Virus record (IMG/VR): IMGVR_UViG_3300025889_000022
Coordinates: 1-41,240 of that record
Length of the DNA stretch: 41,240 bases
Origin: a virus
Strand: one strand, 5' to 3'
The translations under genes and the position numbers were made by a program. The number at the start of each line of letters is the position of its first letter. Within the stretch, counting starts at the first letter, position 1. The notes under the pieces were generated by a model that saw nothing but the letters and a program-made list of their open reading frames with translations, did no database searches and had not been told where the DNA came from. Of the stretch, positions 1 through 41,105 are shown piece after piece.

Positions 1-127
1 CAATATGCATCATTTGCAATTGCGTCAATTGCAACCTGCAACCTGTGCCGTCGAAATGTGATCCGAGTGCGTGGTAGGGAGTGCATTATGAGCGACGTGA
101 CCCAGATACATACAGGCAAGACGCCGA
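1..127. repeat. Left copy of 127-bp terminal direct repeat (closure overlap)
   Basis: Bases 1-127 are identical to 41114-41240. The repeat starts inside the cI/cro intergenic region and ends inside the repressor gene, which is not where a functional terminal repeat would be expected. Its length equals a widely used assembler k-mer. The simplest reading is a circular or circularly permuted genome of 41,113 bp whose ends overlap by assembly. Confidence 0.95.
14..34. promoter_or_regulatory. Lysogeny operator, perfect 9-3-9 palindrome
   Basis: Arms TTGCAATTG and CAATTGCAA are perfect inverted repeats around the spacer CGT. On the circular genome it lies between the divergent cI-like gene (starts at 88) and cro-like gene (starts at 41105) and overlaps the -35 of the predicted cro promoter. 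It is followed by two copies of GCAACCT (31-44). The second copy of this site is 41127-41147. A dyad this strong between two divergent HTH genes is the expected binding site of the phage repressor; which protein binds is inferred. Confidence 0.8.
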
Positions 128-408
128 CCCGCCTGCACTACATTGTAGAGTGGGCGGCGAAGCGAGGGATCACTCAGGCGAAGCTGGCGCGGCGTCTAGA
201 GGTGGACAAATCAACGGTTTTTCGCTGGTTTCAAGGGCAACTGCCCAGCGAGCGGCATATAATTGGCATCGCCGAGATGTTTGCGGTCGAGCCTACCGAC
301 CTATTCCGGCACCCCGATGATGACTGGCTGACCCGACTGCTCAAATCCAAGCCCGCCGCCGAGCGCGAGCGCATCGAGCAAGCCATCCGCATCCTTCTCG
401 CCAGCTAG
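88..408 (+). CDS. Small HTH (XRE/Cro-CI-like) lysogeny repressor candidate
   Basis: A 106-residue protein with a helix-turn-helix at about residues 26-50 (ITQAKLARRLEVDKSTVFRWF) and a short charged C-terminal tail. It has no S24/LexA-type peptidase domain, so induction by RecA-stimulated self-cleavage is not expected. The start at 88 is chosen because AGGGAG lies about 7 bases upstream; an in-frame GTG at 58 would add ten residues without a comparable site. It is divergent from the cro-like gene across the 9-3-9 operator. Position and domain make it the likely CI analogue, but a Cro or activator role cannot be excluded. Confidence 0.8.
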   Translation: MSDVTQIHTGKTPTRLHYIVEWAAKRGITQAKLARRLEVDKSTVFRWFQGQLPSERHIIGIAEMFAVEPTDLFRHPDDDWLTRLLKSKPAAERERIEQAIRILLAS

Positions 409-482: not shown

Positions 483-532
483 TACTACTGCAAATCATGC
501 ATACTCTGGGCCTCAACAAGGGAGACCCAGAC

Positions 533-706: not shown

Positions 707-708
707 TC

Positions 709-807: not shown

Positions 808-1301
808 ACAGATTTGACATCCGCAAAGTCCGCGATGACCTCAACGTCCTGCGCGGTCTGTACCCGGAACTGCTCGATGACGAGGAACTGTGGATCGACA
901 CGCTCGAAGGCGAGACAGATTTCAATGGCGTCCTGTCGCGCATCCTCGATGAGGTAAGTGGCAGCGAAGAACTGCTTGCCGGGATCAAGGCCCGCAAGGC
1001 CCAGATCGCTGACCGGCAGAAGCGGATCGAGGAGCGGATCGAGAAGCTGCGCGGGCTGATCGACAGCCTGATGGAGCAGGCCGATGTCGCCAAGGTCGAA
1101 CTGCCAGAGGCGACCATTTCCCGCCGCCGGGTGCCACCTGCCGTCGTCGTGACCGACGAGGACGCGATCCCGCGCATCTACGGCCACGAAGCGTGGAAGC
1201 TGGACAAGAAGAAGCTGAAGGAAGCCTTGGAAGAGGGCTTTGAGATCGCCGGGGCGTATCTGTCCAACGGCGGTCAGTCAATTTCAATCAGGAGATCGTA
1301 A
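804..1301 (+). CDS. Siphovirus Gp157-family protein
   Basis: The 165-residue product has the Gp157 layout: an acidic N-terminal helical part (EELWIDTLEGE), a long charged coiled coil (about residues 60-100, IADRQKRIEERIEKLRGLID) and a C-terminal segment with REP/KLDKKKLKEAL-like and SIRRS elements. Gp157 proteins occur beside phage single-strand annealing genes; resistance to phage infection has been suggested for one member, but their biochemical role is unclear. It overlaps the preceding micro-ORF by ATGA, and the ERF gene begins on the last base of its stop codon, so translation is probably coupled. Confidence 0.85.
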   Translation: MNRFDIRKVRDDLNVLRGLYPELLDDEELWIDTLEGETDFNGVLSRILDEVSGSEELLAGIKARKAQIADRQKRIEERIEKLRGLIDSLMEQADVAKVELPEATISRRRVPPAVVVTDEDAIPRIYGHEAWKLDKKKLKEALEEGFEIAGAYLSNGGQSISIRRS

Positions 1302-1900
1302 TGACCGACATGTCGATGAACGAGGCGCTGATCGCGGCTCAGCAAGAAATCCGTTTCGCCAAGCAGGATGCCAAGAACCCTCATTTCAACAGCCAGTTCG
1401 CCAGCTTCCAGAGCGTCCACCACAGCGTGATCCCGGTGTTGAACAAGCACGGCTTCAGCGTGATCTTCACGACGATCTTTGAGGGCGGGCTGTTTCAATT
1501 GCTGGCCCACCTGACCTACAGGGACGGTTCCAAGCTGGTGAGCAGCTTCCCGCTGCCGACCGCATTTGACCGCCCGCAGGTGCTGGGCAGCGCCCTGTCC
1601 TATGGCAAGAGATACCTGTTGATGGGTCTGGCCGCGATCCACTCCACCGCCGACGACGACGACGGTAACGCTGCTGAGAAGGGTGCTGATGAGGCTCGCC
1701 TGCGGCAGGCCACCGACCTGCGCGACGAACTGATCAAGGACATCGGCAACTGCATCAGCCTTGCTGAACTTGAGGCGTCAAAGAAGACCGCCTTCTTCAA
1801 GACCCAGTTCCAGAACCTGCAGGCGCTGTCTCCTGAGATGGCCAAAGAGGTGGTCGAGGCGGGTAAGGCTCGCCGAGTGGAACTTGAGGGAAACGGGTGA
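1301..1900 (+). CDS. erf: ERF-family single-strand annealing protein
   Basis: The 199-residue product carries the ERF superfamily core: NPHFNSQFASFQSV near residues 25-40, then the diagnostic GSALSYGKRYLLMGLAAI with an acidic DDDDGN motif near residues 95-122. P22 Erf-type proteins anneal complementary single strands during phage recombination and can circularise or repair infecting DNA. The C-terminal third is variable and helical, as in the family. It is translationally coupled to Gp157 through a TAATG junction. The family assignment is firm; substrate details are inferred. Confidence 0.9.
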   Translation: MTDMSMNEALIAAQQEIRFAKQDAKNPHFNSQFASFQSVHHSVIPVLNKHGFSVIFTTIFEGGLFQLLAHLTYRDGSKLVSSFPLPTAFDRPQVLGSALSYGKRYLLMGLAAIHSTADDDDGNAAEKGADEARLRQATDLRDELIKDIGNCISLAELEASKKTAFFKTQFQNLQALSPEMAKEVVEAGKARRVELEGNG

Positions 1901-1906
1901 TGATCA

Positions 1907-3237: not shown

Positions 3238-3264
3238 GATGTGTCACAGCAATGGAGCGCAATA

Positions 3265-5828: not shown

Positions 5829-6009
5829 TGGCAGCGAGGATTTGGCGCTGTGTTTCAAGCGTCAGCTTGTCCTGACGGGAAGGGCGGATCGGCAGCACCT
5901 GCCCCGTCCACCCGCAGTTGACCTTCATCCAGTGTGGTGCGCTGGCACAGCCCGCCAGCAGCAGGCTAGTCGCGATAGTAGCGATCAAGCCGACGTTCGA
6001 CTTCTTCAT
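5797..6009 (-). CDS. Rz1-like outer-membrane spanin lipoprotein
   Basis: The 70-residue protein begins MKKSNVGLIATIATSLLLAG and then Cys21, a clear lipobox (LLAG-C) for lipidation and outer-membrane sorting. The mature part is short and ends in AANEAQDANCRD. It starts inside the upstream TM-protein gene (44-base overlap, different frame), the nested or overlapping arrangement usual for Rz/Rz1. Together they would fuse inner and outer membranes in the last step of lysis. Two further cysteines (33, 68) could pair between subunits. Confidence 0.75.
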   Translation of the reverse strand: MKKSNVGLIATIATSLLLAGCASAPHWMKVNCGWTGQVLPIRPSRQDKLTLETQRQILAANEAQDANCRD

Positions 6010-6226
6010 CTCCAGCGAGCCTCACCTTATTGACGATCTTGTTGGTCCGCTCAGCAGCCTTGTTATTCAAGGCGCGTGACCGGCGCTCGTATTCATATTT
6101 GCCCGCTGCCTTGCCCTTCGCGAAAACCATTGCAAGACCAATCAACGCGGCACCGATAATGGAAATCTGCAGGGCGAAACGCGCCCACACGGCGCTCAGC
6201 CAGCCCATCAGCAGCGTGAAGATCAT
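5966..6226 (-). CDS. Rz-like inner-membrane spanin
   Basis: The 86-residue protein has one N-terminal membrane segment (about residues 10-35, WLSAVWARFALQISIIGAAL...) followed by a charged helical periplasmic part (YEYERRSRALNNKAAERTNK). This is the topology of an i-spanin. It overlaps the lysozyme stop by ATGA and overlaps the lipoprotein gene. It is shorter than lambda Rz, so the two-component spanin call rests mainly on context and topology. Confidence 0.7.
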   Translation of the reverse strand: MIFTLLMGWLSAVWARFALQISIIGAALIGLAMVFAKGKAAGKYEYERRSRALNNKAAERTNKIVNKVRLAGDEEVERRLDRYYRD

Positions 6227-6948
6227 ATGCCGTCCTCCACGCTTTTGAGATGGCGGTCATAGACCACCCACGCGCCGCCGATGATGATCACCGCAGCAGC
6301 GGCCAGCAAAGCGACTGGCACGATGGACACGCCATCTGTGATAGCACCCACATTGGCCTTGATCTCTGCCACCGAGCCAGAAGCGACAGCCACGCCTGTC
6401 AGCACCTGTGCGCTGCCTGCCAGCGACATCCGAGATTTGCCCAGAGACCGACCAACCGGAGCGTCGAGGGCCTGCCCTTCGGCTTCCGCGATCTTCTCCT
6501 TGGGCTGGGCGGATGCGTACATCGCAGCCTCTTCAGCCCGCCTGCGGATCAGCCCCGGCAGTACCCGGCCACCCGCCTTGTTCCACAGTGCGAACCGGCG
6601 AGCAGCGTCAGCCCACTGGCGCTTGTTGGTGGCCTTGAGGACTGAACTGCGAAGGAACGCTCCGGGGCCGATATTATAGCAGAGGCTCACCATCGCATCC
6701 CACTGTTCCTGCGCGACCTCGACCTTCAGCCCCTGCGCCACGGCCCGCTCGTACTTGACCAGATCGTTCGCGAGGATGTCCTCGGCTTCCTTGCGGGTGA
6801 TCTTCATGCCCGCCGTCACCTGCGGCTTGCCCGCTGCCGAGGTATGGCCATAGCCAATGGTGAGAACGCCAGCAGGGCAACGATACGTTGTACCTCGGAA
6901 CCCTTCATACTTCATGATAAGTGAGCGGGCTTTGGCTGATGTCTTCAT
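6223..6948 (-). CDS. Endolysin, GH24 lysozyme with C-terminal membrane segment
   Basis: The start at 6948 has AGGA 8 bases upstream; the ATG at 6957 abuts it. The 241-residue enzyme shows the E-8-C-5-T catalytic signature of phage lysozymes (Glu15, Cys24, Thr30; EGF...CPAGVLTIGYGH) and the usual helical domain to about residue 150. It would cleave the MurNAc-GlcNAc bond. Unlike most endolysins it continues into a linker and a strong membrane segment (about 208-230, VSIVPVALLAAAAVIIIGGA). There is no N-terminal SAR or signal peptide. The tail may tether the enzyme or act as a holin-like part. Confidence 0.9.
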   Translation of the reverse strand: MKTSAKARSLIMKYEGFRGTTYRCPAGVLTIGYGHTSAAGKPQVTAGMKITRKEAEDILANDLVKYERAVAQGLKVEVAQEQWDAMVSLCYNIGPGAFLRSSVLKATNKRQWADAARRFALWNKAGGRVLPGLIRRRAEEAAMYASAQPKEKIAEAEGQALDAPVGRSLGKSRMSLAGSAQVLTGVAVASGSVAEIKANVGAITDGVSIVPVALLAAAAVIIIGGAWVVYDRHLKSVEDGI

Positions 6949-6959
6949 GCTGTCCATCC

Positions 6960-7217
6960 TCACTTCGTGACTTGCTTCCCGATGTGCAGCAGGCGCTCGT
7001 CCATCATCTTGGTCCGCTCGTCCAGCCGTGACATCGTCTGCTCGATCTTGGACAGCGACTGCCACATCCGTACCTGATCGCTGTCCATCTTGGTCATATC
7101 GGCCTCTAGCCGCTCGACCTTGTTGGACAGCTTTGACGCCCACCAGATGGTCGTGGCCGCGTGGCCCAGAATTGAAAAGGCCAACCCCCAGAACGCAATT
7201 GAATCTAGAGCAAACAC
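6960..7217 (-). CDS. Small TM plus coiled-coil protein of the lysis region (holin candidate)
   Basis: The 85-residue product has an N-terminal hydrophobic segment (about residues 6-28, SIAFWGLAFSILGHAATTIW) and then a heptad-patterned coiled coil to the end (LSNKVERLEADMTK...SLSKIEQTMSRLDERTKMMDERL). It lies immediately upstream of the lysozyme, where holins or antiholins are often found. One membrane span plus a coiled coil resembles XhlA-type proteins with inverted order. The role is inferred from position. Confidence 0.65.
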   Translation of the reverse strand: MFALDSIAFWGLAFSILGHAATTIWWASKLSNKVERLEADMTKMDSDQVRMWQSLSKIEQTMSRLDERTKMMDERLLHIGKQVTK

Positions 7218-7222
7218 CGCTG

Positions 7223-9340
7223 TTACCTCCCCAACAGTCCGTCCAGCCGCCGGGGCTGCAGTTCGTTCATTGAATAATTGTAGCCTGCCGCAGCGCCGGG
7301 AATGCTGGTCATGCGAGCAACGTCTGCGGCAAACCTGCTGTTCAGCGGTTGATTGCGGTTAATGGATTGCAGGGCCGCGTGGAGCCTCACAGCGTCACTG
7401 CCACGGGCGGTTGTCAGAGCCTTAGCCACCTCTGTCGCAATGGCGTCCTTGCGCTGCTTCACCGCTTCGGGCGTCTGACCAGTAAACGCCTGCAGCACCC
7501 GCCTCGACGCTTGCAAAGGCTCTCCAGCCGCCGCGCGAGCAAACGCCCCGCCACGAGCCTGATCATCAAGCATGCTGTTGAACTCTTGGCGTTGAGCCGT
7601 CTTGCTGTTCTGGGCGACCGATGCCCTCAGTTCAAACGCCTTCGCCTGCTCATCGATAGCCTTGAACAATCGTGCGGACTGCCGAGGCCCAAGCAGCGTC
7701 TCCATCTTTTCGCGGCTTGCCCTGCTTGACAGGTCACGCAATACCTTGCGGCCTTCAGCTACCCCGGCAGCGTCACCAGACACAGTTCCTACGGCCTTGG
7801 CCATCTGGTCGTCTATGTATTGCCGAGCGCCTCTACGGGCCGCGAGAAGCTGCTCCCGGTCCATCCCCTTCACCATCAACGCAAAGTCGCCACGCTTGAT
7901 GCTGGATCGGAATGCATCCTCCCCGATCTTTAACGCCTCAATGCGTGAGAGCGGGTCTGCCGCTGTCTTCAACGCTTGATCATACGCGGGAACGTGTGCG
8001 CGAAGGGTGCTGCGAATGTCCCGGCTCAAGTCACTGAGAGCCTTACCCTCTACTGTCACCGCACCGAGCGCGGAACCCCTCTCCTTTTCCGAGAGCGTAT
8101 TGAGGGCGCGGGTGATGTAATCAAGCTGGCGAACATCAGGCATCTGACGGTACACCACAGAGCCATCATCAGCCACCGTGGCCATTATTTGCTGGCTTTC
8201 TTCGCCCATCAGCTTCATCAGCCGGTTTGCCTTGGCGATAACATCACCCGGCACCTGCCTCATCAGTTCCTCTATCTGCATGCCATCCGGCGAAGCGTAA
8301 TCAATCGGGCTAGAGTAGGCTTGCTTGTATATAGCCCTGCGCTGTTGCTTGGTTGCATCGCGGATGCCCCGAATGGCCGTCTCGACGTTTTCTGGCTTGC
8401 CGAGGTAGGCGTCCAGAACGCCCGCCATCTTGCCGGTGGCCGCTCGCGCCCGCTGTTCAATAGCCGGTCGAACAACGCTGGTGGCTCCAGCGGTAGAACT
8501 TAACGTGGCGTCCAGCACATTCCGCGCTTCCGGGCCAACGTCAGCCAGCATTGCGTCAGCCCCGGCTGATGCCAGATTGTGCCGCCCCATTGCCTCCGGC
8601 GGCATCGACCTTGAGAGTATCCGAGCCGCGTCTGGAGACAACCCAACGCGCCCTGAGTTGCGGTTAAAGGTTCTGCGGTCAAGCAGGTTGCGTGTGCCTG
8701 CCTTTATTCCCTCCGATACCAGTGGTGTGGCTGCGCCGAAGACACCCCCGACAAACGTCCCAAGCTTTCCGCGCTCTTTAGCCACCTCCATTCGGCTCTC
8801 TGGCGTGGTGCCTGCGCCATACCCGCTGACAGTACCTTCTGTGCCGCCCAGTACAGCGCCAGTCGGAATGCCGACAGCAACCTTGCCAGCCGTACTTGTG
8901 GGCAGCATGCTGGTGAGTTTAGCCGGTGCGCTTATAGCTGCTACAGGAAGCGTAGCAGCCACGCCACCGCCCATCTGAAGCGCCAAGGACTGGCCGGGGT
9001 TTTCCCGACCTTCCCGGTCTTGCATTGCGCGGACCATATTGGTCGCTTCTTGCCGGTTCCGGCCAAACAGCTTCTCCGCAGCAAAGCCCAGAGCCTCGTC
9101 TGTATACTCACCAACGAATGGGATGCCTTGGAGAACCTTGGTGGCTTTTGACGCAATAGGGTGCCGCCGGGACCAATCTTCCATCTGCTTATCGACGCCG
9201 AATTTCTCACCGGACGCCTGCATGTTCTGGAAGATTTCTTCGATCTGTGCTTCCTGCGCCTCTTTTGGCAGAGCCAGAAACTCCTTACCAACCCTGACCG
9301 GACGGCCAGCGATCAGTATCTCGATCATGTTGTCATCCAT
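7223..9340 (-). CDS. Large internal virion / DNA-ejection protein candidate
   Basis: The 705-residue protein begins MDDNMIEILIAGRPVRVGKEF, an N-terminal motif seen in large phage virion proteins. It has an Ala/Gly-rich hydrophobic middle (about residues 125-205) that could insert into membrane, then a long helical region. No enzymatic motif is visible. It is the last big structural gene before lysis and overlaps the upstream gene by ATGA. Position and composition match the ejection proteins (E-proteins) of short-tailed phages that form a conduit into the cell. The exact role is inferred. Confidence 0.65.
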   Translation of the reverse strand: MDDNMIEILIAGRPVRVGKEFLALPKEAQEAQIEEIFQNMQASGEKFGVDKQMEDWSRRHPIASKATKVLQGIPFVGEYTDEALGFAAEKLFGRNRQEATNMVRAMQDREGRENPGQSLALQMGGGVAATLPVAAISAPAKLTSMLPTSTAGKVAVGIPTGAVLGGTEGTVSGYGAGTTPESRMEVAKERGKLGTFVGGVFGAATPLVSEGIKAGTRNLLDRRTFNRNSGRVGLSPDAARILSRSMPPEAMGRHNLASAGADAMLADVGPEARNVLDATLSSTAGATSVVRPAIEQRARAATGKMAGVLDAYLGKPENVETAIRGIRDATKQQRRAIYKQAYSSPIDYASPDGMQIEELMRQVPGDVIAKANRLMKLMGEESQQIMATVADDGSVVYRQMPDVRQLDYITRALNTLSEKERGSALGAVTVEGKALSDLSRDIRSTLRAHVPAYDQALKTAADPLSRIEALKIGEDAFRSSIKRGDFALMVKGMDREQLLAARRGARQYIDDQMAKAVGTVSGDAAGVAEGRKVLRDLSSRASREKMETLLGPRQSARLFKAIDEQAKAFELRASVAQNSKTAQRQEFNSMLDDQARGGAFARAAAGEPLQASRRVLQAFTGQTPEAVKQRKDAIATEVAKALTTARGSDAVRLHAALQSINRNQPLNSRFAADVARMTSIPGAAAGYNYSMNELQPRRLDGLLGR

Positions 9341-19142: not shown

Positions 19143-20114
19143 TTAGCTGTCAAGCAGGTCGGCAATGATGCCGTGCGCAGCCTGATTTTTGACCTTGAGG
19201 CCGAACTCAACGAGGATCATGCGGCGCTCCGAGTCGCCGGTCACCGCGAGCTTCTTGGTCTGGTAGCCGCGCAGATACGCGACACCCGCATACTCCGGAT
19301 CGAGGACGAACACGTCACGCGAACGCTGGAAGCGGTTTGCGATCATGCTCACCTTGCCGAAGTCGGACAGATACACGTCAGCCGTACCCACGATTGCGAA
19401 AGGCTTGGCCGAGGTGTTGTTCATCCGGTTGGCCTGAATGCCGGTGAAGGCCGATGCCACGGTCTTGTTGTGCGCACCCGCCATCATGATCTTCGGATCA
19501 CCGCCGTTGTTCCACATCGACTGGATCACGTCCTTGAGCATCTGCTCGGTGAAGGTACGCTGAGTACCGTCAGTACGGGCCGTGTCGATGTAGCCGTTCG
19601 GGGCCGAGGTCAGAGCGCCGTTGGAGCCGTCACCAGCCTTCGAGACGTTGGAGGTCAGCCACGTCGGAAGACCGGCGGTCTTGCGAGCGGTGGTCGAGTC
19701 ACCAATGACCGATGCCTGATTGAACAGCAGGGCGGTTTCTACGTCCCGCTTCAGTTCAGACGAGGCGCGGGCCATATCGTAGGCAAGCCTGCTCTTGTAA
19801 CCTGCGGAATCGACACTCTCGATAGTGCCGGAGGTGCCAACGACCTTGCGGCTGATCTGAGTGTAGTTCCCGACGCGGTTAGTAGCCGCGCGGCTGTCGA
19901 GCGTTGCGTCGTCGCCTTCAATTGCGGCATTCGTAGTAGAAGCCGCTGCAAGCGAGTCGGTAAGCCATTCGAAGTAAGTATTGGACACGTTTTCACGGCC
20001 AACATTACTCATAAATGGGGTTTCCTCTGGCGAGATGTCATATATCATGCTGGAGAGGTCTTCACGAATATTGTTCGCATCATATTTGTCGAACAGGTTT
20101 GTCGGCTGAGCCAT
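19143..20114 (-). CDS. Major capsid protein (SU10-type)
   Basis: The 323-residue protein contains DLSSMIYDISPEETPFMSNV, FEWLTDSL, GNYTQISRKVVGTSGT and the terminal FGLKVKNQAAHGIIADL, the pattern of the SU10 major capsid family (HK97 fold). No protease or fused scaffold is visible. It lies directly downstream of the scaffold gene, with a good ribosome site (AAGGAGGA). It forms the icosahedral shell and should be the most highly expressed late product. Confidence 0.92.
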   Translation of the reverse strand: MAQPTNLFDKYDANNIREDLSSMIYDISPEETPFMSNVGRENVSNTYFEWLTDSLAAASTTNAAIEGDDATLDSRAATNRVGNYTQISRKVVGTSGTIESVDSAGYKSRLAYDMARASSELKRDVETALLFNQASVIGDSTTARKTAGLPTWLTSNVSKAGDGSNGALTSAPNGYIDTARTDGTQRTFTEQMLKDVIQSMWNNGGDPKIMMAGAHNKTVASAFTGIQANRMNNTSAKPFAIVGTADVYLSDFGKVSMIANRFQRSRDVFVLDPEYAGVAYLRGYQTKKLAVTGDSERRMILVEFGLKVKNQAAHGIIADLLDS

Positions 20115-32951: not shown

Positions 32952-33223
32952 AGGTTGTACCGCCCCGGTGGGGGGGGGTCCGTTTCTCCGGGGGTTTTAC
33001 CTATTTGCGGTTGAATGTGGGGTTTTTGAGTAGGGAGAGAGGGGGGTGTGTATATATAACTGCCCCCGGCATTGGGGTGACCGGGGGGGTCCGCGCCGGA
33101 ATGGAGCGACCGTGCCGACCCCGCCCGATCCTTGCTCCGCCGCTCTGCAATAAGCGGAACAAACCGTGAACAGATGGCTGCAGGTGATTGGCCATCACCC
33201 TACAAACCAATGTTATCAATGGG
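32952..33223. other. TerS-TerL intergenic segment, candidate packaging site
   Basis: This 272-base gap is the longest non-coding stretch of the window. It holds G-runs, GGGGGGGTCCG twice (32972-32982, 33083-33093), a GACC-GGGGG-GGTC dyad (33079-33091) and a short TA run (33051-33057). No ORF is credible. Its place between the two terminase genes makes it a candidate pac or cos region, but I cannot identify a cut site. A weak promoter or leader role is also possible. Confidence 0.4.
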
Positions 33224-33715
33224 TTACGCCTCTTCCTCGTCCAAAACCTCTTCGACTGGCGTGATGTCGATCATCTTCTCTGCCCCTGCGTCATCCTTGG
33301 TCAGCAGGGATTGGAGCGCCTGCAGGTGCAGCGTGTGGCTGGCCTCGACCGAGACTTCCTTGCGGTCGTGCATGCCCAACCAGTGCTTGCTGAGATGGAT
33401 CGCAGCGGTGACGTTGTTCTCCTCAACGGCCATTTTGTACAATTGCCGCCTTAAACCCATCTTTCCGCCCTGTTTCATCGCCTCAACGAATTTCCCTAAA
33501 GGGATGGAATTATCCTTCAGGCACTCAGCCGCCAATACGTTATCGTCCACTCCCATCACAGAGCATATCTCCTCGATGGTCATGTGTGTCTGGGCCATTC
33601 TCTCTACGATGTCCCAGTCTACGCGGTATTTGGGTCTTCCACCGGATTCCAGCTTCCTTACCCCGTACAGTGCCTTCTGCAGGCTGTTGGGTTTGTCTGC
33701 TGTCTTGCTATTCAT
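33224..33715 (-). CDS. Terminase small subunit candidate
   Basis: The 163-residue helical protein contains MTIEEICSVMGVDDNVLAAE, a helix-turn-helix like those in TerS DNA-binding domains, and KMGLRRQLYKMAVEENNVTAAIHL followed by SKHWLGMHDRKE, a pattern typical of small terminases. It lies upstream of TerL, separated by a G-rich gap. It would recognise the packaging site and recruit TerL. Confidence 0.85.
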   Translation of the reverse strand: MNSKTADKPNSLQKALYGVRKLESGGRPKYRVDWDIVERMAQTHMTIEEICSVMGVDDNVLAAECLKDNSIPLGKFVEAMKQGGKMGLRRQLYKMAVEENNVTAAIHLSKHWLGMHDRKEVSVEASHTLHLQALQSLLTKDDAGAEKMIDITPVEEVLDEEEA

Positions 33716-33839
33716 TGGATTACCTTGTGGGTGTGTTCCTGTGGGCTTTGGAGGGGCCTTGGAGGAGCGTTCTTGCCTCCTCGAAGGGAATCACCCTTGA
33801 TTGATGCTTTCGCCTCTCTACGGGGCTTCTATGAGCCTC
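33716..33839. other. Late-operon leader region, no gene
   Basis: Between the 33840 gene and TerS. It contains a 5-bp hairpin AAGGG/CCCTT (33784-33798) and a GGAG/CTCC dyad just after it on the minus strand. No clear sigma-70 promoter is visible. The late promoter or a regulated leader probably lies here because the big late block starts at TerS. Confidence 0.3.
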
Positions 33840-34055
33840 TCAGTGCCATTGCAGGTATGACGGGTCTACCGAGTATACCTTCTGCAGGACGCCGTGAGCG
33901 GACTTGTGGTCTTCTGGGGTGGCTGATGCCCAGTCTGCTTCCAGTTCTTCCCAGCCGTCGTGGTTGTCAGGCTGGAACATCGGGTGATCGAGCAGGTACA
34001 GGTAGTAGGCGATGACGCCCAGTGTCCTTCTCGCTGGCAGGCTCAAGGCTTGCAT
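33840..34055 (-). CDS. Small hypothetical protein before terminase (71 aa)
   Basis: Start 34055 has AGGGG 5 bases upstream; a GTG at 34061 overlaps the previous stop as GTGA. The product (MQALSLPARRTLGVIAYYLY, HPMFQPDNHDGWEELEADWA) is mostly helical with a hydrophobic first half and an acidic second half. No family is recognised. It lies at the boundary between the small-gene array and the terminase block. Confidence 0.6.
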   Translation of the reverse strand: MQALSLPARRTLGVIAYYLYLLDHPMFQPDNHDGWEELEADWASATPEDHKSAHGVLQKVYSVDPSYLQWH

Positions 34056-34057
34056 CG

Positions 34058-34198
34058 TCACCCCTTGCTGATCTTGCCCTCGCCCTTGCAGACTTCACAG
34101 GGACGCTGCTGGGCCGCTGTGGCGGTGTAAGTGGTCATGAGGCCAGAGGCTGGCTTGTCAGGGTGCTTACCGCTCCCCCCACAGGCTGGGCAGTTCAC
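34058..34198 (-). CDS. Zinc-finger mini-protein (DnaJ-like CxxCxGxG pair)
   Basis: A 46-residue ORF from GTG 34198 with AGG 4 and GGAG about 9 bases upstream; a GTG at 34213 is the alternative. It has CPACGGSG near the start and CEVCKGEG near the end, two CxxCxGxG motifs of the DnaJ zinc-ribbon type. Such mini-proteins occur among early phage genes. A DNA- or protein-binding role is likely but unspecified. It overlaps the next upstream gene. Confidence 0.6.
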   Translation of the reverse strand: MNCPACGGSGKHPDKPASGLMTTYTATAAQQRPCEVCKGEGKISKG

Positions 34199-34382
34199 TT
34201 TGCCTATCTCCACTGAATGGGCGTCGGTACAGTGTGTCGGCGCGGCTGAAGGCGATCTCTGCCGCAAGGGCCATTGCCTCGGCTTCGGAGAGCCAGTGAG
34301 GCGGATCGATGTCACCGTCCCATATCCCGGCTGTCGGGATCGGGTTGAACTGTGCATCGCCTCTGAACTTGTATCTGATCAT
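34167..34382 (-). CDS. Small hypothetical protein (71 aa)
   Basis: Start 34382 (MIRYKFRGDAQFNPIPTAGI) is preferred over the upstream ATG 34448. The sequence continues WDGDIDPPHWLSEAEAMALA, with a helix and an Arg/Ser-rich end. It overlaps the zinc-finger ORF by 32 bases. No clear ribosome site is visible and no family is recognised. It follows the terminator at 34508-34525. Confidence 0.55.
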   Translation of the reverse strand: MIRYKFRGDAQFNPIPTAGIWDGDIDPPHWLSEAEAMALAAEIAFSRADTLYRRPFSGDRQSELPSLWGER

Positions 34383-34507
34383 GAGAAAACCCGGCAGCTT
34401 GTGGCCACCGGGTCTCCTGCACCAACAAAAAGGAGCAACGAATGCCACGCTGCAATTACCTTGTACCCCCGATTTGGCCGATTTGACCAGCCTGTGGAAA
34501 AGTGAAA

Positions 34508-34525
34508 GGGGCCGATGACGGCCCC
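34508..34525 (-). terminator. Terminator-like hairpin after the small-gene array
   Basis: On the minus strand GGGGCC - 6-base loop - GGCCCC is followed by TTTCACTTTTCC. It lies about 45 bases after the last array gene (34572). The trailing bases match those after the capsid-gene terminator. A TATATA-rich stretch (about 34540-34550) lies between the gene and the hairpin. Confidence 0.6.
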
Positions 34526-34571
34526 ATTCTCGTATATGTGCCCTATATAGGAAACCGAGGGTGTCCTCTGG

Positions 34572-34751
34572 TTAGCTGTTCAGCCACTCCTCATATGTCT
34601 TGAGCGGTGCGCCGCCGCGCGTGATGTCACCGCCTTTGCCGTCGTCGGCGCAGTGCAGGTAAATCTGATACTCGGCGTCATTGCTGCCCCGGTAGCGGGT
34701 CTGGGTGATCTGCGGCTGAAGGGTGCCGTCTGGGTTGATACCTCTCTTCAT
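34572..34751 (-). CDS. Array gene h: hypothetical protein (59 aa)
   Basis: The product MKRGINPDGTLQPQITQTRY continues RGSNDAEYQIYLHCADDGKGGDI and ends LKTYEEWLNS. It starts behind an AAGGAG leader and follows the TTCG hairpin at 34773. The pattern looks like a small beta protein. No family is recognised. It is the last gene of the repeat-linked array. Confidence 0.65.
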   Translation of the reverse strand: MKRGINPDGTLQPQITQTRYRGSNDAEYQIYLHCADDGKGGDITRGGAPLKTYEEWLNS

Positions 34752-34772
34752 CGCCTTGCTCCTTGTGGGGTG

Positions 34773-34790
34773 GCGGGGCCGAAGCCCCGC
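34773..34790 (-). repeat. Array hairpin 3 (GCGGGGC stem, TTCG loop)
   Basis: A 7-bp GCGGGGC stem with TTCG loop between array genes g and h, with flanks GTGGGGTG and CTGGGTTG similar to the other copies. It has no T-run, so it is more likely an RNA processing or stability element, or a recombination join, than a strong terminator. Confidence 0.75.
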
Positions 34791-34798
34791 TGGGTTGC

Positions 34799-35047
34799 TT
34801 ACAGCGGCATTACCGGCAGTGAATTGACGCCACCTGCGCCAGCGCAAATGTGACCGCCCTGCACATGACCGTATGACCAGCCACCGGACGACCGGCAGAG
34901 ATTGCCGTGCTTGTCGACCTTGGCCCGGTCGATCTCGACAAGGTTGAAGCCGTAGGCTCGCGCCTCGACGGTGTTGACCGCCTCTGCCGCATTGGCCAGC
35001 GGGACCAGTTTCTGAATGCGGTTGATGAAAACGTGGGTGAAAGTCAT
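34799..35047 (-). CDS. Array gene g: hypothetical protein (82 aa)
   Basis: Starts with the shared leader CCAAGGAGACAACGAG before MTFTHVFINRIQKLVPLANA. The middle reads ARAYGFNLVEIDRAKVDKHG and the end is GWSYGHVQGGHICAGAGGVN, Gly-rich with two Cys. The N-terminal half is a predicted helix-strand unit. No family is recognised. Confidence 0.7.
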   Translation of the reverse strand: MTFTHVFINRIQKLVPLANAAEAVNTVEARAYGFNLVEIDRAKVDKHGNLCRSSGGWSYGHVQGGHICAGAGGVNSLPVMPL

Positions 35048-35074
35048 CTCGTTGTCTCCTTGGTTGGGTTGATC

Positions 35075-35275
35075 TCAGGCCAGTGCGTCTTCGACGTGCT
35101 GCACCCACTGCTCCAGCGTCAGATCGCGCAGGTATGGGGCGTAGACGCTAGGGATGTGAACGTAAGGGCCGGTGCCTGCCACATCGTCAAACCAGTAGTA
35201 GCCATTGGCCTTGACGATCTCGATGCCGTGCTTGGCGAGGGCGGCGTTGATCTTGTTGATGGTTGGTGCGGTCAT
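35075..35275 (-). CDS. Array gene f: hypothetical protein (66 aa)
   Basis: The product MTAPTINKINAALAKHGIEI continues KANGYYWFDDVAGTGPYVH and ends SVYAPYLRDLTLEQWVQHVEDAL. Proteins with this helix-strand layout and VY..LRDLTLEQW end are common as small phage or plasmid proteins, but no function is known to me. It has the shared leader and follows hairpin 2. Confidence 0.75.
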   Translation of the reverse strand: MTAPTINKINAALAKHGIEIVKANGYYWFDDVAGTGPYVHIPSVYAPYLRDLTLEQWVQHVEDALA

Positions 35276-35296
35276 GTCGATCTCCTTGGGTTGGTG

Positions 35297-35316
35297 GGCG
35301 GGGCCGAAGCCCCGCC
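35297..35316 (-). repeat. Array hairpin 2 (GGCGGGGC stem, TTCG loop)
   Basis: A perfect 8-bp GGCGGGGC stem around a TTCG loop between genes e and f. Flanks (AACC before, CACCAACC after on the minus strand) match hairpin 1. It has no T-run. Confidence 0.8.
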
Positions 35317-35324
35317 GGTTGGTG

Positions 35325-35687
35325 TTAAGTGCCGCTTACCGGAACCAACTTGATGTTGTTGTTTGGGGCGGCTTCAATCGTGAACAGCTTGCCTTCGATC
35401 CTGATGGTGTCGCCAAGGTCAAAGCCAAAGCAGACGCCCTTTGCCTGCTCGCTGTCCGAGATCATTGTGCTGTTACCATAGGCCCAATAACCCTCTTTTT
35501 CGCTAAAGCCGATCGTGAAGCTGTTGAGGTAGTCGTTGCTGTACTTCTTCGAGAAGCCGCGAACCCTGATTTCTGCAGGGCAGGTGCGGCAGTAGCCTTT
35601 GTCTTCACTCAGGCGAAAATCGCAGAGCATGCCGTCGTAAATTATGTAAGCGGGGTAGTCAGCGAGGATGTATGAGGTCTTGGTCAT
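35325..35687 (-). CDS. Array gene e: hypothetical protein (120 aa)
   Basis: First gene behind the duplicated promoter at 35718. The start at 35687 has AGAAGGAG upstream. The product (MTKTSYILADYPAYIIYDGM..CDFRLSEDKGYCRTCPAEIR) has a C-x-x-C-like Cys group and a beta-rich C-terminal half (FGFDLGDTIRIEGKLFTIEA). No family is recognised. Confidence 0.7.
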   Translation of the reverse strand: MTKTSYILADYPAYIIYDGMLCDFRLSEDKGYCRTCPAEIRVRGFSKKYSNDYLNSFTIGFSEKEGYWAYGNSTMISDSEQAKGVCFGFDLGDTIRIEGKLFTIEAAPNNNIKLVPVSGT

Positions 35688-35717
35688 GTCGTCGTCTCCT
35701 TCTTGGTTGATGTGTGT

Positions 35718-35746
35718 ACTGTATCCTCGATACATACACCCGTCAA
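35718..35746 (-). promoter_or_regulatory. Array promoter 2 with 6-3-6 operator
   Basis: Minus strand TTGACG (35741-35746), 17 bases, TACAGT (35718-35723). The dyad TGTATC - 3 bases - GATACA (35720-35734) overlaps spacer and -10. Sequence from -35 to the ribosome site is a near copy of array promoter 1 at 36933. It should drive genes e to h leftward. Confidence 0.7.
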
Positions 35747-35758
35747 TAGGGGTAGACG

Positions 35759-35786
35759 AAAAAAGTTTAGGGGGCCGAAGCCCCCT
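35759..35786 (-). terminator. Intrinsic terminator after array gene d
   Basis: A 7-bp AGGGGGC stem with TTCG loop followed on the minus strand by AAAC and six T residues: a strong Rho-independent signal. It separates the first array transcript (from promoter 1) from promoter 2. Confidence 0.85.
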
Positions 35787-35789
35787 CTC

Positions 35790-36143
35790 TCATTCGACAA
35801 AGCACAGGTCGAAGCTGTAGTGCGGTTCGGTGTACCAGCCACTGTCCCGCCGGATGTTGTGGCAGTTGAAGCTGGCACCAATCGCCCACTCCCACGGCCC
35901 AGCTTCCCAGATCACCCGCCAGTGACGGCCACAGCCGCTCTTCTCCGCCTGCTCCGGGGTCTGCAGGATCACCTCAATCTCAGGCTTCTGGCCACGGTCC
36001 TTGGCAAGGGCGCTCAGAGCCTTGTGAAGAGCCTTTGCGGCGCTCTCCTTGGTGTCGTGCTGGGCAGGATCGAAATCGATCTCTATGGCCTTCTCTTCGT
36101 CGCTGCCGGTCATCGGGTTGTATTCCAGTTCGTAGATGTTCAT
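35790..36143 (-). CDS. Array gene d: hypothetical protein (117 aa)
   Basis: The product MNIYELEYNPMTGSDEEKAI has an acidic N-terminus, a helix (KESAAKALHKALSALAKDR), a strand (PEIEVILQT) and an aromatic, Cys/Trp-rich end (CGRHWRVIWEAGPWEWAIGA..HNIRR). It has the AAGGAG leader and precedes the strong terminator. No family is recognised. Confidence 0.7.
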   Translation of the reverse strand: MNIYELEYNPMTGSDEEKAIEIDFDPAQHDTKESAAKALHKALSALAKDRGQKPEIEVILQTPEQAEKSGCGRHWRVIWEAGPWEWAIGASFNCHNIRRDSGWYTEPHYSFDLCFVE

Positions 36144-36167
36144 CGGTCTGCTCCTTGTGAGGTTGCG

Positions 36168-36377
36168 TCAGTAGGTGGTGAGGTGCGACCACGTCTTGAA
36201 CCAGCGGATCGCGTCCGCCTTGCGCTGCTTGCTTTGTGAGAAGTCGAGGTAGGCGTGATCGGCATAGTTCACTTCGCAGGAGTAGGTCGTGGTCCCAGTC
36301 GAGCGGGTGGTGACCTTGTAGACGTTGACGGTCTTGCCGTTGCCTGTTGCTGTCTTGATGATCTGGGCGATGCTCAT
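36168..36377 (-). CDS. Array gene c: hypothetical protein (69 aa)
   Basis: The start is MSIAQIIKTATGNGKTVNVY behind ACAAGGAGCAACAGAC. The rest reads VTTRSTGTTTYSCEVNYADH and KADAIRWFKTWSHLTTY, a strand-strand-helix plan. No family is recognised. The TTCG hairpin 1 lies just upstream. Confidence 0.7.
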   Translation of the reverse strand: MSIAQIIKTATGNGKTVNVYKVTTRSTGTTTYSCEVNYADHAYLDFSQSKQRKADAIRWFKTWSHLTTY

Positions 36378-36405
36378 GTCTGTTGCTCCTTGTTGTCGGT
36401 GGGGT

Positions 36406-36425
36406 GGCGGGGCCGAAGCCCCGCC
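36406..36425 (-). repeat. Array hairpin 1 (GGCGGGGC stem, TTCG loop)
   Basis: Perfect 8-bp stem with TTCG loop between genes b and c. The flanks GGTGGGGT and GGTTGGT (plus strand) recur at the other copies, giving a repeat of about 30 bases. Confidence 0.8.
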
Positions 36426-36433
36426 GGTTGGTA

Positions 36434-36703
36434 TCAGGCCGTCCAGCCGTCCTCGTTGGCCACTGCGCCGATGAAATTGCCCTTCTCGTCGTAGTCCCAG
36501 AGACCGGGTGCGGTTTCGTAAATCCACTCGCCCAGCTTCTGCAGGCGCGGCTTGTCGCTGTCCATCAGAGTGCTGGCGGCGCTTGAAACGCGACCGCAAT
36601 AACGCTGCTCGTCGCTGCGGCTGGTGAACTCCTGCTCTGCGCCGTTGTTGATGTAGTCTTCGCAGATTTCGCGGGCGAGGCTCAGTTCAGTTTCGTAGGT
36701 CAT
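36434..36703 (-). CDS. Array gene b: hypothetical protein (89 aa)
   Basis: The start at 36703 (MTYETELSLAREICEDYINN) uses the leader ACAAGGAGACAACGAC. It continues EQEFTSRSDEQRYCGRVSSA, DSDKPRLQKLGEWIYETAPG and ends LWDYDEKGNFIGAVANEDGWTA. Helical N-terminal half, acidic end. No family is recognised. Confidence 0.7.
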   Translation of the reverse strand: MTYETELSLAREICEDYINNGAEQEFTSRSDEQRYCGRVSSAASTLMDSDKPRLQKLGEWIYETAPGLWDYDEKGNFIGAVANEDGWTA

Positions 36704-36728
36704 GTCGTTGTCTCCTTGTTGTGTGGTT

Positions 36729-36905
36729 TCAGCGGAAATCAAATTCGTCTTCAAAGCCGACAGTCAGGCGAACTGTGTGAGGCCCGTTGAACGTCTTGTC
36801 AGCGTCCATAATCGCGCTGATGGTCCCGTCTTCGTGGAAGCGAACAGTCTCCACGTCGAACTGGGTGTTCTCTGCGATCCACTTCTTGATCTGCTTGCGA
36901 GTCAT
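36729..36905 (-). CDS. Array gene a: hypothetical protein (58 aa)
   Basis: First gene after array promoter 1: MTRKQIKKWIAENTQFDVET, then VRFHEDGTISAIMDADKTFN and VRLTVGFEDEFDFR. Basic N-terminal helix followed by strands and an acidic tail. The leader CCAAGGAGACAACGAC is identical to several other array genes. No family is recognised. Confidence 0.65.
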   Translation of the reverse strand: MTRKQIKKWIAENTQFDVETVRFHEDGTISAIMDADKTFNGPHTVRLTVGFEDEFDFR

Positions 36906-36932
36906 GTCGTTGTCTCCTTGGTTGATGTCTGT

Positions 36933-36961
36933 AATGTATCAACGATACATACACAGGTCAA
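36933..36961 (-). promoter_or_regulatory. Array promoter 1 with perfect 7-3-7 operator
   Basis: Minus strand TTGACC (36956-36961), 17 bases, TACATT (36933-36938). A perfect palindrome ATGTATC - 3 bases - GATACAT (36934-36950) overlaps the -10 and spacer. The first 11 bases match the promoter at 3207 exactly, and the whole unit to the ribosome site is duplicated at 35718. It drives genes a to d. Confidence 0.75.
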
Positions 36962-36982
36962 CAGGAGAAATGCACTGACTGC

Positions 36983-37011
36983 AAAAAAAATTACGCCAGC
37001 CGCAGGTGGCG
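36983..37011 (-). terminator. Intrinsic terminator of the early-right operon
   Basis: CGCCA - 8-base loop - TGGCG overlaps the stop codon of the 36991 gene and is followed on the minus strand by TAA and eight T residues. It ends the replication operon just before array promoter 1. Confidence 0.85.
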
Positions 37012-37560
37012 GGCGATGGAGTTCAGCACCATCCGCAGGTTGGCCAGTTCATTAGGCTTGATGTGTCTGGGGTCTGCCTGCTCGACCAGCACCCGCCGGA
37101 TCGCGTTGTTGATCCGGTCGATGCCTTCATGACGGCAATCGTCTTGGATCGCCCGCTGGAGGTCGAGGAACTCACGCTGGGCCTTGATCACGACATCGTC
37201 CTCAACGTCCTGTTCGTGGCTCATCCCGGCAATCATCGCCGCGTAGGCCGCGATCTTGGGGTTAGGTGATCCCAGCCCCTTGAGGCGGCGGTAGCGCATG
37301 TACACCCTGATCCAGTGGTCGCCTGCCGCCCGCTGTCTCTCATCGATCTGGCCGGTCTTGAGCAGGATGCCGAGCGAGTCGCCCCACTCAGCGTGTCTTG
37401 CATTGGCGTCGGTTGCGCCGTGGTGGCGCTTGCGAGCCTCGACGGCGACCGAAACGACCTCACGCTCACGTTCAGCCGTCACGATCTGTCCGTCCTTGTA
37501 TCGAGCCACGTTCTGCTTGCGCTTCCGGCCCGACCGTTGGCGTCTTCCGATCTCTCCCAT
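36991..37560 (-). CDS. Last gene of early-right operon, unknown (189 aa)
   Basis: The start overlaps the SSB stop as ATGA. A basic N-terminus (MGEIGRRQRSGRKRKQNVAR) is followed by a helical protein with EWGDSLGILLKTGQIDERQ, RAAGDHWIRVYMRYRRLKGL and LANLRMVLNSIARHLRLA. Charge and position, last gene before the late-side array, would suit a late transcription regulator, but no such motif is proven. The strong terminator overlaps its stop. Confidence 0.7.
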   Translation of the reverse strand: MGEIGRRQRSGRKRKQNVARYKDGQIVTAEREREVVSVAVEARKRHHGATDANARHAEWGDSLGILLKTGQIDERQRAAGDHWIRVYMRYRRLKGLGSPNPKIAAYAAMIAGMSHEQDVEDDVVIKAQREFLDLQRAIQDDCRHEGIDRINNAIRRVLVEQADPRHIKPNELANLRMVLNSIARHLRLA

Positions 37561-37973
37561 CAGAAGGGTATCTCGTCACCCACCTGCTCGCGCAGGCTCT
37601 GCATGTTGGGCTGCGGACGATCCCCGGCAGGCTGGTCACCCTTGCCGCCGAGAAGCGTCAGGGTGCCGTTGAACTGGCTCAGCACGATCTCAGTGCTGTA
37701 CTTCTCCGCCCCATTGCCATCGACGTACTTGCGGGTCTGAAGCTGGCCCTCGACGTACACCTTGCTGCCCTTCTGGACGTATGACAACGCGATCTGGGCG
37801 AGGTTAGGGTTGAAGATCACCACCCGGTGCCACTCGGTCTTTTCCTTCCGCTCGCCAGTCGCCTTGTCCTTCCAGCTTTCCGAGGTTGCGACGCTGAACT
37901 TGCAGCCCTGACCCACAGGCTCGACTGCGCTGCCGACGTTGCCGACCAAAATGCACTTATTGACGCTAGACAT
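37560..37973 (-). CDS. ssb: Single-stranded DNA-binding protein
   Basis: The start at 37973 has GGAG 8 bases upstream, unlike ATG 37979. The 137-residue protein has the OB-fold pattern MSSVNKCILVGNVGSAVEPV, KFSVATSESWKDKATGERKE, WHRVVIFNPNLAQIALSYVQ and KVYVEGQLQTRKYVD, and ends GDEIPF, the acidic tip that recruits partners. It coats ssDNA during phage replication and recombination. Confidence 0.92.
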   Translation of the reverse strand: MSSVNKCILVGNVGSAVEPVGQGCKFSVATSESWKDKATGERKEKTEWHRVVIFNPNLAQIALSYVQKGSKVYVEGQLQTRKYVDGNGAEKYSTEIVLSQFNGTLTLLGGKGDQPAGDRPQPNMQSLREQVGDEIPF

Positions 37974-37975
37974 GT

Positions 37976-38545
37976 TCATCTCTCCATTTCGGTTGTGAAA
38001 AATTCGTTGAGCAGATCGCTCGCTTCCGTAAGCAGTTTTGGCGACCGCTCGACGCACTGCCTTGCATGCACGATGGACGAGTGGTCCCGCTTCATCGCAC
38101 GGCCTACCTCCGGGTGGGATCGGCCAGTCGCCTTGAGGACACACCACGCGGTGATCTTGCGGGCGTGAACGAGTTCTTTGCGGCGCACCGGGCCGAGAAT
38201 GTCATCGACCGATACGCGGAGCCGGTCGCTGCAGAAATTGATCACCCGCCACGTCAGGTTGGGCTTGTAGAGCGACTTGTGCCGCTCCTGCTCGGCAGCG
38301 ATCCTCTCCTGCAGTTTGGCCAGACGCTTTTCGCGGTCCTCGACCTGCGCCCGGAGTTCAGCCGCCTCTGCTTGCGCTTCATGCAGCCGCTTGACGGTGG
38401 CAGTGAGTTGCTGGCGCAGCGTGTTCGCGCTGGTCCCGTACCAATCCTTGCGAGGCCGGGTCTCGGTCACCATCCGCTGCAGGCTCTCTGGCAAGGCGTG
38501 GTTCACACGGGCTGTGGCGGCGGTAGCATTGGGGTTAATAGTCAT
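37976..38545 (-). CDS. DnaA domain IV-like DNA-binding protein with coiled coil
   Basis: The 189-residue protein has a coiled coil (about residues 42-92) and a C-terminal segment VSVDDILGPVRRKELVHARK...HPEVGRAMKRDHSSIVHA (111-161), the DnaA DNA-binding domain with its RDHS(S/T)(V/I)xHA signature. It has no AAA+ ATPase domain. It might bind DnaA-box-like sites near the origin, regulate replication, or compete with host DnaA. It is placed two genes after the O-like initiator and overlaps its upstream neighbour by 11 bases. Confidence 0.82.
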   Translation of the reverse strand: MTINPNATAATARVNHALPESLQRMVTETRPRKDWYGTSANTLRQQLTATVKRLHEAQAEAAELRAQVEDREKRLAKLQERIAAEQERHKSLYKPNLTWRVINFCSDRLRVSVDDILGPVRRKELVHARKITAWCVLKATGRSHPEVGRAMKRDHSSIVHARQCVERSPKLLTEASDLLNEFFTTEMER

Positions 38546-40661: not shown

Positions 40662-40888
40662 GCGACCCCCGGAACGGCGGGGGTGGCGGCGTGTGTCACG
40701 TTACTCACAAGGGTAAAGGAGCAAATCCAACAACAACCATCACCACCCCCTGACGCCTCGCTGCTGCTGATCTTGGGGTAGCCAGCCGGGGCGGTTCGAA
40801 TAAAAGAGGCGGACGCGGGGGCGAACCGCGTCCACCAGTTGGCCGCAGGGAGGAATGCGGCTTCGGGATATGTTCTACTCTTGTTCAC
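40658..40888 (-). CDS. Doubtful small ORF between cro-like gene and rusA (76 aa)
   Basis: GTG 40888 starts inside the cro-like 3' end and the ORF ends with an ATGA overlap to rusA, the junction style of this operon. A G-run lies before the start. The sequence (MNKSRTYPEAAFLPAANWWT; SSSEASGGGDGCCWICSFTL) looks random, and the perfect hairpin at 40811-40833 lies in it. It may be non-coding leader. Low confidence. Confidence 0.22.
   Translation of the reverse strand: MNKSRTYPEAAFLPAANWWTRFAPASASFIRTAPAGYPKISSSEASGGGDGCCWICSFTLVSNVTHAATPAVPGVA
40811..40833 (-). terminator. tR1-like terminator after the cro-like gene
   Basis: A perfect 8-bp stem GGACGCGG/CCGCGTCC with a 7-base loop lies 42 bases past the cro-like stop, followed on the minus strand by GCCTCTTTTATT. 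The position, between cro and the replication genes, matches lambda tR1. Read-through or antitermination would be needed for rusA onward. Confidence 0.65.
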
Positions 40889-41105
40889 CTTGCCCCCCTG
40901 TGGAGAAAAGGTGTTTAATGTCTGGGCGCAATTGTGCGCCGGTGAGGCCGGTTAAACGGCTCAGGCGAGTCAAGCGAGAGACTGGGATTGATAATCTATC
41001 CGTCTCCCATCGCCACCACGTCGATCTATCGATTGAAACAATAGCTGCCGCTTCGTTGAGCGTCAGGCCGGATTGCTTTCGCCAGTGCGCGAGAAGTGTC
41101 TTCAT
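40875..41105 (-). CDS. Cro/YdaS-like HTH regulator
   Basis: Start 41105 (MKTLLAHWRKQSGLTLNEAA) gives 76 residues. The HTH (LTLNEAAAIVSIDRSTWWRWE) is followed by GLTGAQLRPDI, the end motif of the YdaS/Cro family. It is divergent from the repressor across the 9-3-9 operator. The predicted -10 ends only 8 bases before the ATG, so the mRNA may be leaderless. It would favour lytic growth by repressing the cI-like gene. Confidence 0.8.
   Translation of the reverse strand: MKTLLAHWRKQSGLTLNEAAAIVSIDRSTWWRWETDRLSIPVSRLTRLSRLTGLTGAQLRPDIKHLFSTGGQGEQE

Follow-up and report, generated by a model that had tools for sequence, protein, structure and literature searches.

Accessory genes that carry their own promoter and terminator are known as morons. 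The term is used in PMC7067206, and in lambdoid phages, short conserved boundary sequences have been proposed as sites of homologous exchange (PMC3029335). In cluster K mycobacteriophages, a short conserved asymmetric sequence, the start-associated sequence (SAS), lies upstream of many nonstructural genes, and its function is open; about half of the SAS sites are directly preceded by 17-bp imperfect inverted repeats, giving the extended start-associated sequence (ESAS) (PMC3203893, PMC12699233). The terminal-repeat regions of phiCbK-like phages contain runs of unknown genes with a repeated CtrA site upstream, and gain or loss of these sites after rearrangement has been reported (PMC9437464). 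Here, we describe an array of eight small genes, a to h, in the virus record IMGVR_UViG_3300025889_000022, of which all 41,240 bases were analyzed (hereafter, the window). The starts of these genes lie behind repeated sequences, which we refer to as joints. With a confidence slightly above even, we favor the reading that this is an accessory-gene array built on repeated expression joints, between which genes are gained, lost, or rearranged, possibly by means of the Erf-like protein of the phage.

The array resembles the SAS/ESAS regions in that a short repeat lies upstream of genes of different families, with an extra inverted repeat at some of them. However, the SAS consensus GGGATAGGAGCCC differs from the leader in the window, and the hosts differ too. 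At up to two mismatches, the consensus has one match in the window (33307-33319, two mismatches; 0.97 expected), and this match is outside the array. The ESAS also differ, as the inverted repeats of the window are two promoter operators and the 3' hairpins; only the predicted promoters P1 and P2 have an inverted repeat near a leader, with half sites of 6 bp, and none of the nine inverted pairs qualifies as an ESAS-type repeat. Like morons, the genes are probably accessory. A promoter and a terminator are predicted for each of two operons, although the number of promoter-like sites in the scan is at chance level. In contrast to morons and to the lambdoid boundary sequences, several genes here share one set of repeated joints in one genome, and some joints lack a promoter. 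Like the phiCbK-like regions, the array is a run of genes without a known function that have repeated regulatory signals upstream. Phage Lacusarx is named in PMC9437464, and a relative of gene d lies in arrays of Lacusarx and of Erythrobacter phage vB_EliS-L02 (L194; hereafter, L02); however, the temperate phage of the window, 41 kb in size, lacks TTAA-N7-TTAA sites and has the operator TGTATC-N3-GATACA. Altogether, the array works like SAS/ESAS regions and moron-like units, yet the searches found in it neither the SAS consensus nor CtrA-type sites. In literature searches for repeated-promoter small-gene cassettes and for morons with their own promoters, we recognized no paper on an array of this type.

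The small genes and their joints

As claimed in a first-pass annotation made from the sequence, eight consecutive open reading frames (ORFs) of 58 to 120 residues lie on the minus strand (34572-36905), between the replication and packaging genes, each with the length given there (Table 1). All eight have the codon bias of the phage, which none of 300 dinucleotide shuffles reached for any of them; this suggests that they are coding and disfavors noncoding ORFs. The signal is weakest for g, which is reached by one of 150 spurious ORFs, compared with none of 150 for the other seven. The order of genes and signals predicts two operons, P1-a-b-hairpin-c-d-terminator and P2-e-hairpin-f-g-hairpin-h-terminator.

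The motif AAGGAG precedes the ATG in all eight cases. The annotation had placed seven of the ORFs behind a close copy of one leader, and this holds for four, as only the leaders of a, b, e, and g are within three mismatches of AAGGAGACAACGACATGA (0.02 expected); those of c, d, f, and h are looser copies. Across the 24 nt upstream, identity averages 0.58 in the array versus 0.39 among 36 other phage gene starts, which were of our own choice, and none of 5,000 random sets of eight drawn from these 36 reached the array value. When the 70 nt upstream of each of 44 phage gene starts were aligned locally, the eight top pairs were all within the array (a/e with a score of 45, c/f with 36, c/h and f/h with 30, and four with 20 to 22), and three further array pairs score 19, which is also the highest score among the 918 pairs with at most one member in the array. 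The similarity recurs in the groups a/e; c/f/h; and a, b, e, and g. Three classes of joints can be distinguished: promoter-operator-leader (a and e), hairpin-leader (c, f, and h), and leader only (b, d, and g). Outside the array, a 57-aa ORF on the plus strand (533-706) has a leader, CAACAAGGGAGACCCAGACATG, that resembles the array leaders.

The duplication of promoter, operator, and leader that had been annotated is present as a 60-nt unit with 82% identity between a and e, and the operator, in both copies, occurs nowhere else in the window. The promoter scan gave two sites versus 1.5 expected, which is chance level; P1 and P2 are singled out because they are copies of each other over these 60 nt with the same operator. 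Equally present are the annotated TTCG hairpins, three of them in gaps (b/c, e/f, and g/h) and a fourth, with a T-run, after d. The sequence GGGGCTTCGGCCCC occurs exactly at 34775, 35300, 35771, 36409, and 19119 (five matches versus 0.04 expected). The three inner hairpins have no T-run, and with their flanks have folding energies of −16.2 to −20.5 kcal/mol; the joints a/b, c/d, and f/g have no hairpin. Rfam gave no match at gathering scores. None of the proteins a to h matches another at an E value of 1e-4, and therefore the joints are shared while the genes are not.

Based on these features, we suggest that the repeats would be expression joints first, with the leader acting as a strong ribosome site for each small ORF. 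The operator overlaps each promoter, so that one regulator would probably switch both operons. Because the inner UUCG hairpins lack T-runs, protection or separation of transcripts would be a likelier function for them than termination. Since the joints repeat, genes could be gained, lost, or rearranged between them, and the region would be prone to such events; annealing through the phage Erf may drive the exchange, and unrelated passenger genes would then sit behind the local leader. On both identical and 78% identical substrates, recombination by the D3 Erf/Exo pair was about as efficient as that by lambda Red (PMC3945230). This activity on diverged DNA makes an Erf a plausible agent, which we extrapolate to joints of 25 to 60 nt, and the Erf-like protein encoded at 1301..1900 is a candidate recombinase for exchange at the joints. 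We infer the transcription of the array, its regulator, the role of Erf, an early timing, and any host-directed function.

Related genes and arrays in other phages

The best support for exchange comes from two related contigs of another phage group, L234 and L240, with 78% identity along 1.5 kb to one side and 77% along 183 nt to the other (L239, 99.5% identical to L240, was left out of the count). Between the two, a 68-aa gene x is inverted as a unit together with its leader and promoter-like sequence; the x proteins are 69% identical, d is retained (57% identical), and within the loci compared, a 55-aa ORF w is present in L234 only. A 55-nt hairpin-leader joint, 82% identical, lies between d and w in L234 and between x and d in L240, and the inverted unit has one end at the hairpin joint. 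The expectation of the first-pass annotation that related phages would show different ORFs between conserved leaders and hairpins is thus borne out in this other group, while no relative of the window phage with the same array was found.

Other phages carry relatives of the genes d, e, f, and h, and probably of g, in other company. The d family has seven phage records at an E value of 0.1 and, in viral contigs, 178 redundant loci confirmed by tblastn, of which 80 were kept and 52 are distinct; the f family has 15 phage records and 34 viral loci, and the e family has 12 phage records at an E value of 0.1 (best 1e-6, in Birtae). L255 has a relative of h (72% identity over about 42 aa), and L204 has a partial relative of g (E 2e-4, with 56% identity over 27 aa); each is the only one identified. 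In the phage collection, a, b, c, g, and h had no match at an E value of 0.1. The annotated lack of recognizable families therefore stands for a, b, and c in that collection but not for f, which belongs to phrog_9154 (E 4e-16), nor for d, e, and h, which have relatives, as g probably does. phrog_9154 was found in all 25 f-family members scanned, and its function is unknown in PHROGs; none of 30 d-family members matched PHROGs (E 0.001) or Pfam (E 0.01). The isolated phages with d or f relatives have mostly alphaproteobacteria as hosts, and Pseudomonas too.

An f-family gene lies directly before d in three of the 80 d loci (L232, L233, and L241, a single phage group). L255 holds the d and h relatives together, L204 holds f and g relatives on opposite strands, and in Lacusarx, the d and f relatives are 24 kb apart. 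The order in L210 is e relative, GGGGGCTTTGCCCCC hairpin, f relative. In Birtae, CATCAACC-GGGGGCTTCGGCCCCC comes after the e relative and is the sole hairpin with that stem of at least four G in 45.6 kb; the f relative of RcTitan has CGGGGCTTCGGCCCCG behind it, which is one of two such hairpins in 44.5 kb.

Arrays with repeated leaders were found in other phages. In L02, AAGGAGACAGACCGATG occurs, at up to two mismatches, in 19 forward copies and one reverse copy, and 18 of the 19 forward copies are in the last 17.5 kb (132.6-150.1 kb). In the stretch read, each unit combines a hairpin, a promoter-like sequence, and a leader with its gene, and the d relative is in one such unit; a term search of the L02 paper for repeats and expression signals matched only in a reference. 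In a strict array test, which asks for a 50-nt upstream sequence common to at least three starts, 21 called starts of L02, two of them only 4 nt apart, share 50 nt upstream. L250 and L255 have arrays like that of L02 with other sequences, and Lacusarx has start clusters of four and two, the latter including the d relative. In L02, Lacusarx, and L250, d also has a shared 50-nt promoter-leader. Of the 118 focal genes in a leader-locality test, 29 passed at a p value of 0.05 (d, 15/80; f, 8/31); seven of the eight window genes passed, as did d in L02, L250, L255, and L263 and, in a rerun, d in Lacusarx (p below 0.0025). For d in L02, Lacusarx, L250, and L255, none of 400 samples each reached the local match. 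These results support, without proving, that the leaders are local.

The array of the window itself was not found elsewhere. Megablast of 33000-38500 against 50,697 phage records gave no match, and the gene at 33224-33715, used as a query in viral contigs, gave no relative with the array; the plasmid and E. coli collections were left out of this search. No homolog of a to h (E 1e-3) was present at any of 168 loci for the single-stranded DNA-binding protein (SSB) or the terminase (TerL), consisting of the best 80 of 453 SSB loci and of eight genome and 80 viral TerL loci, many of them fragments. Of 35 TerL relatives with at least 60% identity, 17 hold at least 4.6 kb upstream of TerL, and none of these 17 has an a to h homolog. 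Among 398 genomes of the phylum to which G001 belongs, none had a match to d, which is uninformative by itself. The exact 19-base leader is present in seven viral contig stretches, in one copy each, and homologs of a to h or of the tested flanking genes were absent from all seven at an E value of 0.05; therefore, the leader string alone is no marker of such arrays.

Alternative explanations and regulation

Several observations weigh against an exchange of genes between joints. As no relative with the same array was found, exchange in this phage lineage is something that we infer, and joints of 25 to 60 nt are short for homologous exchange. In L234/L240, the other end of the inverted unit lies upstream of its promoter, away from the hairpin, and only the hairpin joint, not the d leader, points to locality: d in L234, L239, L240, and L232 did not pass the leader-locality test (p 0.07 to 0.16), nor did f in the window (p 0.10), and this test is uncorrected for base composition. 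Strict arrays were found at 2 of 84 TerL loci and 2 of 52 distinct d loci but at none of 74 SSB loci and none of 27 f loci. Compared with 2 of the 158 control loci, d loci are not enriched, and d is therefore no marker of arrays and often lies outside them. The window itself did not pass the strict test because the long shared stretch is that of a and e only, differing by a short insertion. Genes of the window co-occur in 3 of 114 d and f loci versus 0 of 168 (tblastn; p 0.065), which is not significant. Finally, the GGGGCTTCGGCCCC copy at 19119 directly follows a non-array ORF (19143-20114), arguing that the hairpin is used elsewhere in the phage and is not peculiar to the array.

Of the two control loci that passed the strict test, L100 resembles a repeat interspersed in a bacterial genome, and L123 resembles a repeated leader. 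In L123, the starts at 272, 621, 1461, and 1681 share the 3'-most stretch, which ends in CGCGCTTGCAGGGGAGAAGAAAG; its terminase is related, and three of the proteins begin with MSE.

Many of these observations would also follow if the repeats were ordinary expression signals, that is, one optimized ribosome site and the usual transcript ends, with illegitimate recombination swapping the genes and the repeats uninvolved. We regard this explanation as possible, if rather unlikely. It accommodates the hairpin at 19119, the three joints without a hairpin, the loose leader copies of c, d, f, and h, and the 50 of 52 distinct d loci that did not pass the strict test. However, it does not account for the 60 nt that a and e share, which include promoter and operator and thus exceed a ribosome site, for a leader that is not common to the 36 other gene starts of the phage, or for L234/L240, in which different genes flank a conserved hairpin joint and the inverted unit has one end at this joint.

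Alternatively, the repeats could be kept by one regulator, protein or RNA, in a regulon of repeated binding sites, as proposed for SAS/ESAS, and exchange would be incidental; we consider this unlikely. In the window, TGTATGTATC is confined to P1, P2, and the start of an HTH_3 gene, with four matches, two of which are one site in the end repeat (0.02 expected). Its presence at these three places suggests the 88-408 product as the regulator, and this HTH_3 protein is a candidate for binding the P1 and P2 operators. The helix-turn-helix (HTH) genes at 88-408 (plus strand) and 40875-41105 (minus strand), which are divergent across the genome junction, resemble an immunity region, and a third HTH ORF lies at 3241-3444 (plus strand). 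A regulon would also agree with the CtrA-type sites in the arrays of L02 and L250: the last 19 kb of L02 has eight TTAA-N7-TTAA sites (shuffle mean, 0.1) and 23 TTAACCAT sites, and L250 (IMGVR_UViG_3300010368_000237, 1-8276) has 25 TTAA-N7-TTAA sites in 8.3 kb (shuffle mean, 0.37). CtrA binds and regulates TTAA-N7-TTAA-type sites in Brevundimonas, Caulobacter, and Mesorhizobium phages, and Lacusarx is listed among the phages with an unusual site distribution (PMC9437464). L250 is a dense array of such sites among small genes with repeated leaders. By contrast, the operators of the window lie at two promoters only and not at each gene start, and TTAA-N7-TTAA is absent from the window, from the L255, L234, and L240 stretches, and from the 8.2 kb of Lacusarx tested. 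Different regulators may thus control similar arrays. The duplicated promoter-leader also suggests that one ancestral gene was duplicated in tandem together with its leader and then diverged, but such an origin is highly improbable, since no two of the proteins a to h match each other and d, e, and f each align to a separate set of relatives.

Returning to exchange between joints, we speculate, well short of even confidence, that several phage lineages keep integron-like racks without a dedicated recombinase: the joints would be phage specific, the pool of passengers (d, e, f, h, and probably g) would be shared, and the annealing recombinase of the phage would insert genes. A captured gene would take on the local leader and regulator, of the CtrA type in L02 and L250 and with another operator in the window. 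If our favored reading of the array is right, exchange between joints would be a concrete, testable route by which phages exchange tiny accessory genes and at once place them under their own control, and the joints would mark places to seek new host-acting proteins.

The phage and the proteins of the array

The window has a 127-base end repeat, and the record therefore looks complete. It encodes an integrase, Gam-like and Erf-like proteins, a replication initiation protein, an SSB, a RusA-like resolvase, a scaffold protein, and a terminase, which together indicate a temperate tailed phage. The integrase is of the phage type (phrog_1), and the terminase shares 68% identity with its counterpart in Sinorhizobium phage phiM5.

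A role in host takeover or antidefense, which had been proposed for the array, found no backing: none of the eight proteins had a PADLOC match, and d and f, the two that were folded, had no convincing match among solved structures. The predicted structures of d and f (pLDDT 82.6 and 83.6, respectively) had no match in the PDB at an E value of 0.001, and a second look with VIA-align gave Z scores of at most 3.1. In the BFVD library, the single match of d at an E value of up to 0.001 was its Lacusarx relative. For f, the similarity to HicA chains (Z 2.7 with 6hpb and 2.6 with 6g26) was too weak and was set aside, as was a weak match of its profile to the PDB sequence 8h2i (E 0.009), which arose via repeated GYF-like stretches.

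Table 1. Genes and predicted signals of the array, in order of transcription, and two further genes of the window
Feature	Position	Strand	Remarks
Terminator-like stem with T-run, end of upstream gene, sets off the array	36994..37011	-	Prediction
Promoter P1 (TTGACC-17-TACATT) with operator TGTATC-N3-GATACA at 36935-36949	36933..36961	-	Prediction
Leader of gene a, CAACCAAGGAGACAACGAC	36906..36924	-	
Gene a, 58 aa	36729..36905	-	Codon bias; no homolog found in phage collection
Gene b, 89 aa	36434..36703	-	Codon bias; no homolog found beyond weak phrog_16597 match, E 0.02
TTCG hairpin, joint b/c	36406..36425	-	8-bp stem, no T-run
Gene c, 69 aa	36168..36377	-	Codon bias; no homolog found
Gene d, 117 aa	35790..36143	-	Codon bias; viral family without a name
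TTCG hairpin with T-run 3' of d	35769..35786	-	Predicted terminator of operon 1
Promoter P2 (TTGACG-17-TACAGT) with operator copy at 35720-35734	35718..35746	-	Prediction
Gene e, 120 aa	35325..35687	-	Codon bias; distant relatives in Sphingomonas phage Birtae and other phages
TTCG hairpin, joint e/f	35297..35316	-	8-bp stem, no T-run
Gene f, 66 aa	35075..35275	-	Codon bias; phrog_9154
Gene g, 82 aa	34799..35047	-	Codon bias; partial relative in L204
TTCG hairpin, joint g/h	34773..34790	-	7-bp stem, no T-run
Gene h, 59 aa	34572..34751	-	Codon bias; relative in L255
Terminator-like hairpin with T-rich tail after operon 2	34508..34525	-	Prediction
Erf-like single-stranded DNA annealing protein	1301..1900	+	phrog_155, E 1e-30
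HTH_3 regulator	88..408	+	TGTATGTATC site inside at 105-114 (minus strand)

Elsewhere in the window, an ORF at 5215-5637 (plus strand) has a strong match to the Pfam phage endonuclease family PDDEXK_14 (E 1e-39), and a glycosyltransferase-like ORF (4640-5218) adjoins it.

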